From: Massilibacillus massiliensis | GTDB lineage: Bacteria > Bacillota > Negativicutes > FLKF01 | Length of the DNA stretch: 64,000 nt | NCBI RefSeq assembly: GCF_900086705.1 | Contig: NZ_LT575483.1 | Coordinates: forward strand, 941,709-1,005,708 | Direction: 5' to 3' | Part shown: piece by piece, positions 30,288 to 34,218 of the stretch | Numbering within the stretch: position 1 is the first letter of the stretch | How the letters are laid out: every line of letters starts with the position of its first letter | Translations under genes and position numbers: made by a program | Notes under the pieces: generated by a model | The model's database searches: none | What the model was told of the DNA's origin: nothing | The model's input: only the letters and a program-made list of their open reading frames with translations

Positions 30288-30446
30288 ACCTAATACCTCC
30301 AGTTTAATATTTAAACAATTCCTTTTTTACAAAACAATAGAATTATACCATAATTTGCATTGTTTTGTAAAAAAAGCGAATATTATGCAATATTTTAAGG
30401 CTTTAAATATCATTCTTAAACTCTTGTCTATTATTTTAACAATAAA

Positions 30447-30489
30447 AACAGGCTGATCAACACGATTTCTCCGTGGCGATCAGCCTGTT
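30447..30489. repeat. 43-bp terminator hairpin, copy 2
   Basis: Identical to 29291-29333. T-runs on both sides; on the minus strand it ends the MaoC-BioY-thiolase-ligase operon. Confidence 0.85.
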
Positions 30490-30541
30490 TTTATTGCTTT
30501 TATACTGTACTGTCAATTTGTTCTCCATAAAATTACATGAT

Positions 30542-31897
30542 TTACTTTTCTACGAATGATTTTAATTTTTGCAGATCAAATTTCCCTGAATCATTAAGCG
30601 GTATTGCATCCAAGAAAATAAATTTCTTAGGAATTTCCAATTTCATAAGATTTGCTTTTATCTCGGAACGAATGTAGTCCTTATCTAGATCGGCATCAGA
30701 AACAACAAATGCCGCCATTTCGCTGCCCTTTTTGGCATCATCATAGGCGATCACCGCAACATTATGGATACCCGGTATTTTCTTGATTTCTTCTTCTACC
30801 TTAACGCAGCTTATCTTAAAACCGCCCTTATTAATCATCTGCGTCTGTCTTCCTAAAAAAATCAACTGCTGATCTTCAGAAAAATAACCTTTGTCCTCAA
30901 CTGTGTATGGCATCTCAATTCCCCAGATATGATAGGGTGTATCGACGTAAATGCAGCCATCCTGAATGGATACAGTGACACCGGGAAAAGGTTTACCAAC
31001 ACTCAAGGGATTGTTTAATAACGCTTCATATTCTATATAAGTAATATAATTGAGTTCACTGGCTCCATAATACAAAATGATATTCGCATGGACAAAGATC
31101 TCTTTCAACGACTTTGCAACCTTGGAAAACAATAGCTGTGAACCTGTAAAAATCATAGTCACACTTTTGATCGGCTCATGAATGCACTTCTGAAAGGTCC
31201 TCAATTTTGCCGGCACAAGATAAATCGCTGTTACCTGATATTCTTGTATCGTCTTCAGCCACGTTTTACACTGAAATACATTCGTTACAAGTACCAAGCC
31301 GCCCTCATATAAAACGGAAAGTACCGCATTGAGATTTCCCGTAAAGCTAAAACTGCCATGCAGAAATAGAACAGTTGCAGCATTCAATTGGAAAATTCGA
31401 TTCTGCACAGGGAAAAAATCCGCCCAACTTTCATAGGTACGAAATAGCACTTTAGGAACATCCGTTGATCCCGAACTTAGTACACCGATGCAAATTTCAG
31501 GTGCCACCTGCATTTCTTTATCAATTGAAGTCGTCGATAAAAAAGCATCCTGCACGTTTTGCGTATCAACAATGAAGTCCAATGCGAGTCCTTGGTCAGA
31601 CAATATATAGCGGATCTGATTTTTCAGGACAAGTTTTTTTAACGCAGTCTGCGGCAAATCATAGTGTGAAATAATCGGTACATTCCCCGATTTTAGAACC
31701 GCAAAGAAAGCAACAAGCTGAAATAACAGACAATCTGAGTAAATCAGAATAACGGCATGCCTTGCCGCAATGTTCTCGCCTAAACGCCGCGCTGCAGAAT
31801 ATATCATTTCATAAGAATAGTTTTGCTGATTCACACACAGAAATAGTTTATCTTTATGTTTACGCGCCATGGTTTCTAATAAGGTAAAATAATGCAT
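30542..31897 (-). CDS. AMP-forming acyl-CoA/acid ligase (YhfT-like)
   Basis: 451 residues, ANL adenylating superfamily. GVLSSGSTDVPK is the phosphate-binding loop, ILYYGASEL the A5-type motif, LGRQTQMINKGGFKISCVKVEEE the hinge and A8, and NDSGKFDLQKL the A10 lysine. It activates a carboxylic acid as acyl-AMP, usually passing it to CoA. Its start overlaps the thiolase stop (TAATG). Last gene of a BioY operon, so the acid may be a biotin precursor such as pimelate or a related chain (inference). Confidence 0.85.
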   Translation of the reverse strand: MHYFTLLETMARKHKDKLFLCVNQQNYSYEMIYSAARRLGENIAARHAVILIYSDCLLFQLVAFFAVLKSGNVPIISHYDLPQTALKKLVLKNQIRYILSDQGLALDFIVDTQNVQDAFLSTTSIDKEMQVAPEICIGVLSSGSTDVPKVLFRTYESWADFFPVQNRIFQLNAATVLFLHGSFSFTGNLNAVLSVLYEGGLVLVTNVFQCKTWLKTIQEYQVTAIYLVPAKLRTFQKCIHEPIKSVTMIFTGSQLLFSKVAKSLKEIFVHANIILYYGASELNYITYIEYEALLNNPLSVGKPFPGVTVSIQDGCIYVDTPYHIWGIEMPYTVEDKGYFSEDQQLIFLGRQTQMINKGGFKISCVKVEEEIKKIPGIHNVAVIAYDDAKKGSEMAAFVVSDADLDKDYIRSEIKANLMKLEIPKKFIFLDAIPLNDSGKFDLQKLKSFVEK

Positions 31898-33039
31898 TAC
31901 GCTTTCACCCTTTTCAATAAAATTGCCGAACCTACCCCACCTGCGCCTGCAATTGCCGCTACACCATAAAGTCCCTGTGTATACGCGAGCGCTTTTAATA
32001 AGTGCAAAGCAATAATTGCACCGGATGCACCATACGGATGTCCATATGCCAACGCACCACCAAATATATTATAACAATCAACAAGCTTCGGATATTTACG
32101 TGCAAACAAAACATCAATCACAGCAAAGGCTTCATTGAGCTCAACATTTGCAATATCAGCATAGGTCAATCCAGCAAGCTCCAACAATTTATCCACCGCG
32201 CGCATTGCGCCTGCCGGACTATAGAATGGATTCGTTCCGATGGCACAACTTTGGACGATTTGGGCCATCGGCTGTCTTGCATTCTGGTGTAAAAACGTCT
32301 CGGAACAAAGTATTACAAACGCCGCACCATCATTGGTCAAACAAGAATTTCCTGCTGTAGTCAGTGATCCTGCCCCTAAGAGCGCCGGCAGGCGATCCAG
32401 CAATTTTTGCTGCATCCGTGGCCGGATTCCTTCATCTTTACAACTGCCATACAAAGGAACAATGACGTCGCTGAGTCTAGCATTTTCCCGCGCTGCATTT
32501 GCACGTCGATGACTTTCCAAAGTCCAAAAATCCAATTCCGCTTTCGTCATCTTTTCTCTTTGTGCCACGCGCTCCGCACCATGCAGCATAACAAGTTCGT
32601 TATTTTCTTCAGGCGAGAATTGTGCCACCATATAGCCGGGATTTTCGGCAACATACCGGGCGTCATCTTTTGCATAGATTCTGCATGGCTGCAACGAGCT
32701 GCTCTCAAAACCGCCCGCAATTACTACATCACATTGCCCGCTGCGAATTTTTGCAAAAGCAACATCTATGCTCATTCCAGCCGAAGAACATTGCATATCA
32801 ATCGTAAATGCAGGAACTTCTTCGCTGATGCCTGCTTTCAATGCCATTAAGCGAGTGATGTTTCCACCTGTCCCAACAGCATTGCCGCAAATAATTTGAT
32901 CTATCTTTTCTAACTGATATTTTTCTATCAGCACTTTTACTAAAGATGCGCCTAAATCTTCCGGCAGCACATGCTTAAACATGCCATTTTTTAAACCAAT
33001 ATGACTGCGGAGTCCGCCCAAAATATAAACATTTTCCAT
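31897..33039 (-). CDS. Thiolase (acetyl-CoA C-acetyltransferase family, YhfS-like)
   Basis: About 380 residues. The nucleophilic cysteine is in DMQCSSAGMS, the catalytic His in NELNEAFAVID-type and GGALAYGHPYGASGA motifs. The last catalytic Cys motif is altered: GVAAIAGAGGVGSA replaces the usual CxGxG (here AGAGG). That missing C-terminal cysteine argues against normal thiolysis. ATG at 33039 has AAGGA upstream. Coupled to bioY upstream and the ligase downstream. Confidence 0.83.
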   Translation of the reverse strand: MENVYILGGLRSHIGLKNGMFKHVLPEDLGASLVKVLIEKYQLEKIDQIICGNAVGTGGNITRLMALKAGISEEVPAFTIDMQCSSAGMSIDVAFAKIRSGQCDVVIAGGFESSSLQPCRIYAKDDARYVAENPGYMVAQFSPEENNELVMLHGAERVAQREKMTKAELDFWTLESHRRANAARENARLSDVIVPLYGSCKDEGIRPRMQQKLLDRLPALLGAGSLTTAGNSCLTNDGAAFVILCSETFLHQNARQPMAQIVQSCAIGTNPFYSPAGAMRAVDKLLELAGLTYADIANVELNEAFAVIDVLFARKYPKLVDCYNIFGGALAYGHPYGASGAIIALHLLKALAYTQGLYGVAAIAGAGGVGSAILLKRVKA

Positions 33040-33044
33040 TTGAC

Positions 33045-33578
33045 TCATCCTTTTTCAGTTGAGAAAACTCTATTTAATTTAACACCTAAATACGCAGCAA
33101 TTCCAGATTTGACAAGATCGCCGACAATAAAAGGGAACACTGCAACGATGAGCGTGGAAAAAATATCTAAATCTTGTACAAGGCACATAGATAGCATTCC
33201 ACCAAGATAAATAATAGGCATGCCGATAAAAACATCAACTGCCATATATCGTTTAAAACTATTGGTTTTCCCCTTACATAAACTCATCAACGGCACCGCT
33301 GCGAGATAGCCAAAAATAAAACCGCCCGTCGGGCCAAATAATTTACCCGGGCCGGACACCCCGCCGACAAAAACGGGAACGCCAACGACGCCCAATAATA
33401 TGTACACGGCAAGCGTAATAAAGGCTTGCTTTGGTGATAAAACAAAGGCAATCAGATTTACTACAATTGTCAATGCCGTAAGCATCGCAGCGGTAAACGG
33501 CAAGGGTATTGAAATATACGCAGAAACACTTAATAACGCTACGCATATCGCTATTTTTGTTAAAACTCTCGTATGCAC
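33045..33578 (-). CDS. bioY: Biotin transporter substrate-binding subunit BioY
   Basis: 177 residues, six membrane helices of the ECF S-component type. The conserved BioY region PVFVGGVSGPGKLFGPTGGFIFGYL (here broken into VFVGGVSGPGKLFGPTGG and FIFGYL) is present. BioY binds biotin for uptake with or without the ECF ATPase module, which is not in this window. GTG at 33578 has AGGAG 10 bases upstream. The position in a BirA-like operon confirms biotin control. Confidence 0.93.
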   Translation of the reverse strand: MHTRVLTKIAICVALLSVSAYISIPLPFTAAMLTALTIVVNLIAFVLSPKQAFITLAVYILLGVVGVPVFVGGVSGPGKLFGPTGGFIFGYLAAVPLMSLCKGKTNSFKRYMAVDVFIGMPIIYLGGMLSMCLVQDLDIFSTLIVAVFPFIVGDLVKSGIAAYLGVKLNRVFSTEKG

Positions 33579-33598
33579 TCTACTTCGTCTCCTACTTT

Positions 33599-34135
33599 TT
33601 ATTTTATAATCGCTTGAAATACTTTTGCATTGTCGCTATAGCCAATCATGCCGGTTTCCGTACTTTCAAGATATACAGGATCTTCGGCATAGATCGGCTT
33701 CATAAATTTAATTTCTATCTCGCGAAACGCAGTGAAATATTGAGCGATCGTTTCTAAAATCAATAAACCCTGTACAACCGGTCTTTCCGTCAAATGAATC
33801 GTATTGATATCACCAACCCTTTGAGAAAAGTCATAGATCTCTCGTTTATGAAAAGTCTTCCACGCCACTGCCTTGTCGGGAACACCGCTCTTTTCATCTA
33901 AACTTTGAATTGTGACATGCAGAAAAAGAGTCATGCTCAACTTCGCGATCAATTGCTGCTTCGCATCATATACTGCAGCTGAAAGCACCTGAAAACGACT
34001 CGTCTCCTTTTCAACCGCGACCTGCGGAACCGTTGTCCGATTTTCGGCATACCGCTGATAGTTTACTTTCGCAATATAACTATTATGATATTTTTCATCT
34101 TTCAATTGTGAAAAAGCTTTTGCAAGTTGTATCAT
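33599..34135 (-). CDS. MaoC-like hot-dog dehydratase, first gene of the BioY operon
   Basis: 178 residues. The C-terminal half reads FSQRVGDINTIHLTERPVVQGLLILETIAQY, the MaoC/R-hydratase hydration motif (D, H), followed by IKFMKPIYAEDPVYL. The first 90 residues look like a second, degenerate hot-dog. Probable role: hydration or dehydration of an acyl-CoA/ACP intermediate. ATG 34135 follows AAGGAAG. The B. subtilis yhfU-yhfT-yhfS operon has no such gene, so this is an expanded version. Confidence 0.72.
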   Translation of the reverse strand: MIQLAKAFSQLKDEKYHNSYIAKVNYQRYAENRTTVPQVAVEKETSRFQVLSAAVYDAKQQLIAKLSMTLFLHVTIQSLDEKSGVPDKAVAWKTFHKREIYDFSQRVGDINTIHLTERPVVQGLLILETIAQYFTAFREIEIKFMKPIYAEDPVYLESTETGMIGYSDNAKVFQAIIK

Positions 34136-34163
34136 AGAACTTCCTTTCTCCTACTCAATTTCC

Positions 34164-34218
34164 ATTATATCTATTCAAAAAACATTCGTCAACCAATATG
34201 TATTTATTCAGTTAACGA
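34164..34218 (-). promoter_or_regulatory. Promoter with BirA-like operator for the BioY operon
   Basis: On the minus strand TCGTTAACT, 15 bases, GGTTGACGA (34186-34218) matches the Firmicutes BirA operator TTGTTAACC-N~15-GGTTAACAA at 14 of 18 positions. The right half contains the -35 box TTGACG, followed after 17 bases by TATAAT (34164-34169). Biotin-loaded BirA would block RNA polymerase. Confidence 0.75.

Follow-up and report, generated by a model that had tools for sequence, protein, structure and literature searches.

A predicted BirA-controlled operon of MaoC-like, BioY, thiolase, and ligase genes that probably salvages or spares biotin in Massilibacillus massiliensis

We analyzed a 64,000-nucleotide stretch of the Massilibacillus massiliensis genome (contig NZ_LT575483.1, positions 941,709 to 1,005,708; hereafter the window). 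Its minus strand carries four adjacent genes at 34135-30542, which encode in order a MaoC-like protein, the biotin transporter subunit BioY, a YhfS-like thiolase, and a YhfT-like adenosine monophosphate (AMP)-forming ligase, behind a predicted operator for BirA. This operon, which recurs in many anaerobes, some of them wholly unable to make biotin, probably salvages or spares biotin rather than building a pimelate precursor. Our best explanation, to which we assign a probability of roughly 0.4 as a whole, is that the four genes form a self-contained operon, repressed by BirA and switched on when biotin is scarce, that provides an acyl-coenzyme A (acyl-CoA) module for salvage of biotin vitamers. 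This may possibly take the form of adding two carbons to a shortened vitamer, for example bisnorbiotin.

The four genes are tightly packed, with successive intergenic gaps of 20, -4, and -1 bases, and are flanked by terminator-type hairpins; the set therefore looks like a single transcription unit. BioY, the thiolase, and the AMP-binding ligase all match their Pfam families far above the cut-offs (e.g., 107 bits for BioY, cut-off 25). The bioY, thiolase, and ligase genes are adjacent within one operon, as they also are in relatives, which places the set among BioY-YhfS-YhfT modules. Gene positions, together with the Pfam and structure matches, bear out the four-gene operon described in a first-pass annotation of the sequence. 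No Rfam family was matched at its gathering score anywhere in the window, and a riboswitch explanation was therefore dropped.

The operator arms match TTGTTAACC-N-GGTTAACAA at 14 of 18 positions with a 15-bp spacer, and conform to the inverted arms TTGTTAACY and RGTTRACAA of BirA operators, which have 13-16 bp between them. The -35 box of the promoter falls within the right arm, in agreement with the overlap claimed at first pass. A 14/18 score is by itself not rare, being reached at three places in the 64-kb window; the core GTYAAC-N14-18-GTTRAC occurs there only once. Across the 4.0-Mb genome, GTTAAC-N14-18-GTTGAC is found at two places, namely the four-gene operon and the other bioY, and GTTAAC-N14-18-GTTAAC at one, upstream of bioD-bioA. 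Backwards control patterns for the core gave 11 and 26 matches, counting both strands. A 14/18 BirA-like site also precedes a tandem bioB pair in the same genome, which encodes a 338-amino-acid BirA with HTH_11 and BPL domains, i.e., a group II BirA with a DNA-binding domain. The restriction of core sites to biotin genes and the presence of this BirA support the biotin link and BirA control that had been proposed, and we infer from the sequence that BirA would bind the operator. The yhfS-yhfT promoter is a demonstrated target of BirA binding and repression in Staphylococcus aureus (PMC6391492).

Alongside bioY, the source genome contains bioD, bioA, and two bioB genes. No bioF was detected in it (best score 24.9 bits, cut-off 426); the completeness of the assembly is put at 98%, which makes it unlikely, though possible, that a bioF was overlooked. 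In a genome without bioF, pimeloyl-CoA has no known use. According to Rodionov and colleagues, such an incomplete pathway belongs to a biotin auxotroph that can use 7-keto-8-aminopelargonic acid (KAPA), 7,8-diaminopelargonic acid (DAPA), or dethiobiotin (PMC6593275).

The same picture emerged from a survey of 380 genomes of the class Negativicutes. The thiolase family was found at an E-value of 1e-110 or better in 157 of them and its core family, defined by a score of 460 bits or more, in 132 (hereafter core-module genomes). These divide into 52 with bioF and 80 without; the odds ratio for association was 1.06 (P = 0.82), a statistic that ignores phylogeny and includes some draft genomes. Furthermore, bioB was missing from 26 core-module genomes, and bioB and bioF were both missing from 21, ten of which are at least 90% complete. 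Genomes lacking both include Anaerovibrio sp. JC8 (G106) and G285, with a BirA site of 15/18 at its module (L062). The independence of the module from bioF and bioB calls for a function useful to cells that cannot make biotin.

The first-pass annotation had seen a short acyl-CoA pathway tied to biotin, which is supported, and had suggested that it might make a pimeloyl-type precursor, which the distribution of bioF and bioB across the class does not support. In such a scheme, the ligase, condensing enzyme, and dehydratase would lengthen a C5 acid into a pimeloyl thioester that BioF could use, as with BioZ. The chemistry fits, BioZ provides a precedent using glutaryl-CoA and malonyl-acyl carrier protein (PMC7645780), and the Propionispira module has bioF some 10 kb away, the interval holding a BirA-type site. 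However, the recognized pimeloyl-precursor pathways (BioC/BioH, BioW, BioI, BioZ) are assigned together with BioF, which the source genome lacks, and with the module so independent of bioF and bioB over the survey, we consider precursor synthesis quite unlikely. A further alternative is that the module replaces BioW and BioF, converting pimelate to KAPA or a later intermediate by a novel route that feeds BioA, BioD, and BioB. The gene complement of the source genome (bioB, bioD, bioA, and bioY, with no bioF) would suit this, and Clostridium autoethanogenum, which carries bioYDA, grows on pimelate without a known BioW or BioF (PMC6505512), so unknown steps exist. Yet the operon encodes no amino-transfer or pyridoxal phosphate enzyme, and 21 module genomes lack bioB as well as bioF, making this replacement very unlikely.

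Several observations concern the biotin genes themselves. The tandem bioB genes (L011:8201-10194, C6 near 2684251) are 49% identical to each other, and several related genomes have two or three bioB genes. The BirA-type site between module and bioF in Propionispira is a second, perfectly palindromic one, TTGTAAACC-N13-GGTTTACAA (L172:15510-15540, L173:15541-15571). In many Selenomonas-type genomes, mostly of family f20, BioF lies in open frames of ~630-760 amino acids, almost double the normal length, which suggests that BioF is fused there to some other biotin enzyme.

Table 1. Positions of the operon genes and associated signals in the window.
Feature	Position	Strand	Details
Predicted BirA operator, near-palindromic	34186-34218		TCGTTAACT-N15-GGTTGACGA (minus-strand sense); upstream of first gene
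Sigma-70-type promoter	34164-34192	minus	TTGACG-N17-TATAAT; 11/12 match; called by sequence position only
MaoC-like protein, predicted miniature double hot-dog (3R)-hydroxyacyl thioester dehydratase	33599-34135	minus	178 aa; D109, N111, H114
BioY, substrate-binding subunit of energy-coupling factor (ECF) biotin transporter	33045-33578	minus	177 aa, GTG start; matches Pfam PF02632 and PDB 4dve
YhfS-like thiolase-fold condensing or cleaving enzyme	31897-33048	minus	383 aa; C87, N305, H337, A367
YhfT-like AMP-forming acyl-CoA ligase	30542-31897	minus	451 aa; P-loop, K149, K439
Terminator-type hairpin 3' of ligase	30440-30496	minus	25-nt arms, U-rich 3' side; fold -37.6 kcal/mol, z -11.7
Terminator-type hairpin between operon and upstream M20-peptidase gene	34289-34333		fold -27.8 kcal/mol, z -8.2

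Multiple sequence alignment of the thiolase with its relatives (103 sequences) shows that the nucleophile Cys87 is invariant and that Asn305, the Asn of the NEAFA motif, and the catalytic His337 are each conserved in 102. The second cysteine of canonical thiolases, within the CxGGGxG motif, is replaced by A367, confirming the earlier remark that the C-terminal catalytic Cys is absent. This position is Ala in 100 sequences, Pro in two, and Cys in one, the last being a neighboring canonical thiolase caught by the search; a second thiolase subfamily, whose loci likewise include BioY, ligase, and BirA sites, carries Gly at this point. Judged from these alignments, absence of the second catalytic Cys is a conserved feature of the family rather than a sign of decay. 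The invariance of Cys-His-Asn and of about 50 further columns led us to discard the idea of a dead thiolase. The Cys-His-Asn triad is that of FabH and BioZ, which catalyze decarboxylative condensation (PMC7645780), and by analogy the window enzyme may work in the same way. No other protein of the source genome matches the thiolase profile, and so the enzyme is not part of a general beta-oxidation set; with no linked acyl-CoA dehydrogenase or hydroxyacyl-CoA dehydrogenase either, degradative fatty-acid oxidation is unlikely.

In the ligase, the P-loop, K149, and the C-terminal K439 are conserved. Its best NCBIfam match is PRK07638, at 151.3 bits against an equivalog cut-off of 518, while the thiolase best matches the general TIGR01930 and then PRK06690, at 245.8 bits against a cut-off of 498. 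We take PRK07638 to be YhfT and PRK06690 to be YhfS. With scores so far below the equivalog cut-offs, the window enzymes are distant relatives rather than strict members of these closest named families.

The first gene product, called MaoC-like at first pass, scored 16 bits on its own against Pfam MaoC_dehydratas, short of the gathering score of 27, and 10 of 24 members of its family gave weak MaoC matches. The assignment nevertheless holds on the basis of profile and predicted fold. The family profile matches PDB 3ir3 (E = 3e-6) and 1iq6 (E = 4e-6), i.e., HTD2 and PhaJ-type enzymes. An AlphaFold2 model (predicted local distance difference test score 93) aligns over its full length with HtdX of Mycobacterium tuberculosis (Z = 17.1, 2.1 Å, 165 residues), followed by itaconyl-CoA hydratase and the hydratase 2 of multifunctional enzyme type 2 (MFE-2). 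Since HtdX is a double hot-dog dehydratase, we predict that the MaoC-like protein is one too, in miniature form. The motif D-x-N-x-[IL]-H is conserved in 76 of 77 sequences, with D109 and N111 invariant and H114 nearly so; together with the hot-dog fold of the model, it places the protein in the MaoC/hydratase-2 group. Beyond the His, the spacing is H-x4-P-x2-[PQ]-G-x4-E, which presumably recalls FabZ. Relatives occur in 128 of the 380 genomes and in 31 of 102 genera. Relatives are also found as stand-alone genes (60% and 40% identical; L050:7421-7957, L051:7023-7574, L052:7111-7665) located away from BioY, thiolase, and ligase. A single-sequence search of the genome contigs with the MaoC-like protein gave no match, and the alignment of its family was too variable to serve as a query, so that the thiolase alignment was used to search for loci.

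That search, run on named genomes, returned 306 thiolase relatives, the best 80 of which include members from Propionispira, Clostridioides difficile, Clostridium, Lachnospiraceae, Veillonella, Selenomonas, Mitsuokella, Acidaminococcus, and a spirochaete. Gene order varies between loci: besides MaoC-BioY-thiolase-ligase, we observed BioY-ligase-MaoC-thiolase in Anaerovibrio and forms that lack BioY or MaoC. A BirA-type site scoring at least 14/18 lies near the first gene in 53 of 109 related thiolase loci (some organisms being counted twice) from Negativicutes, Clostridia, and a spirochaete, the sites ranging from Negativicutes to C. difficile and Lachnospiraceae. The corresponding rate was 0.9% in shuffles, and within the thiolase gene itself 1 of the 109 loci had such a site. 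Among the neighbors of the set at these loci, we saw no additional pathway gene recurring. In one genome without bioB and bioF (G027), the thiolase and ligase frames are broken into several (L073:6019-8409), and the module may be decaying.

From this gene content we infer enzyme activities, their direction, and a substrate as follows. BioY would import biotin or a related vitamer, and the ligase would convert a carboxylic acid to its acyl-CoA, most likely through the side-chain carboxyl of the imported vitamer. The thiolase-fold enzyme, with the Cys-His-Asn of 3-ketoacyl-acyl carrier protein synthase III (KAS III) and without the proton-abstracting Cys of true thiolases, would add a two-carbon unit to the acyl group. 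The MaoC-like protein would then dehydrate the 3-hydroxyacyl intermediate, with general fatty-acid reductases performing both reductions. We favor salvage because BioY is in the operon at most loci and because the three enzymes, together with common fatty-acid reductases, would suffice for one round of chain extension. Retention of the module in the 80 core-module genomes without bioF, and in the 21 without both bioB and bioF, is as expected for uptake or salvage. In the most specific form of this proposal, a shortened vitamer, for instance bisnorbiotin, would have its side chain rebuilt to give biotin by one KAS-like round, a dedicated chain repair that we think improbable as a fully specified route. 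Animals produce bisnorbiotin from biotin by beta-oxidation, and it would be a natural substrate here. In people it is the chief shortened biotin, accounting for 13-23% of urinary biotin compounds (PMC9106636).

The regulon logic and the independence from biotin synthesis also fit with biotin-sparing lipid or acyl-CoA metabolism. As biotin runs short, acetyl-CoA carboxylase would slow, and the set would activate fatty or other acids from outside and lengthen or reshape acyl chains, with BioY merely coregulated by BirA. Some Selenomonas-type and Lachnospiraceae-type loci lack an adjacent BioY or have it on the other strand, and YhfT is annotated as a fatty acid ligase. However, BioY adjoins the other genes in most loci, and from what is generally known of thiolase mechanism, an enzyme without the second Cys is poorly suited to condensing acetyl-CoA. 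We regard sparing as somewhat unlikely, and as less probable than salvage.

A number of points weigh against vitamer salvage. The operon BioY may simply import biotin, since it retains the GD..K segment found in the biotin-binding BioY 4dve. The operon encodes neither reductases nor a thioesterase, and any malonyl-dependent step would in turn depend on a biotin enzyme. In Propionispira (L051, L052) the MaoC-like gene lies apart from the other three, and loci in C. difficile comprise BioY, thiolase, and ligase without it. The assignment of a substrate is a proposal, and our literature search found no paper on bisnorbiotin as a bacterial growth factor in such a setting. A second BioY in the source genome (L012:7416-8006, C6:1077460) has its own BirA site and is 24% identical to the operon BioY; it has Q where the latter keeps the K of GD..K, and comparison of the two revealed no clear difference in specificity.

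For the BirA-controlled yhfS and yhfT genes, whose regulation is known, the usual guess at a role is pimelate synthesis. The distribution described here argues against it and points to a function of use to organisms that cannot make biotin. This bears on the sharing and reuse of vitamin B7 in gut and rumen communities, where the module is common; if chain repair does occur, gut and rumen anaerobes unable to make biotin could recycle the spent vitamin.

The core bioY-yhfS-yhfT unit under BirA is already known from Bacillus and Staphylococcus. Like the yhfUTS genes of Bacillus subtilis and S. aureus, the window operon combines BioY, thiolase, and ligase under a BirA operator; unlike them, it begins with a MaoC-like gene, and its module is present in organisms without bioF or bioB. 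The kinship with yhfU-yhfT-yhfS noted at first pass thus extends to a shared core, but the operon is not merely yhfUTS with a new first gene, as the MaoC-like gene is a member of a widespread, reshuffled four-gene set. The MaoC-like partner, the conserved Cys loss, the independence from bioF and bioB, and the class-wide and wider distribution with the operator all look new; our literature search found no paper uniting BirA, regulon, MaoC, and biotin.

Comparisons can also be drawn for the individual enzymes. With BioZ, the KAS III-like enzyme of alpha-proteobacterial biotin synthesis, the window thiolase shares the Cys-His-Asn residues and the status of a biotin-linked condensing enzyme; it differs in belonging to the thiolase rather than the FabH family, in not being tied to bioF, and in having no operon with ring-forming genes. 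The MaoC-like protein resembles HtdX and human MFE-2 hydratase 2 in its predicted full-length double hot-dog and its D-x-N-x-[IL]-H active-site segment, whereas it is much smaller than these enzymes of about 230-330 amino acids and has a very short segment from the catalytic His to the next helix. Finally, the staphylococcal vraA-vraB-vraC genes have a similar order of ligase, thiolase, and small protein (VraC). VraC reportedly forms a complex with VraP, next to the ligase VraA and the thiolase VraB (PMC10620731), and the two might represent halves of a single hot-dog dehydratase resembling the one predicted in the window.

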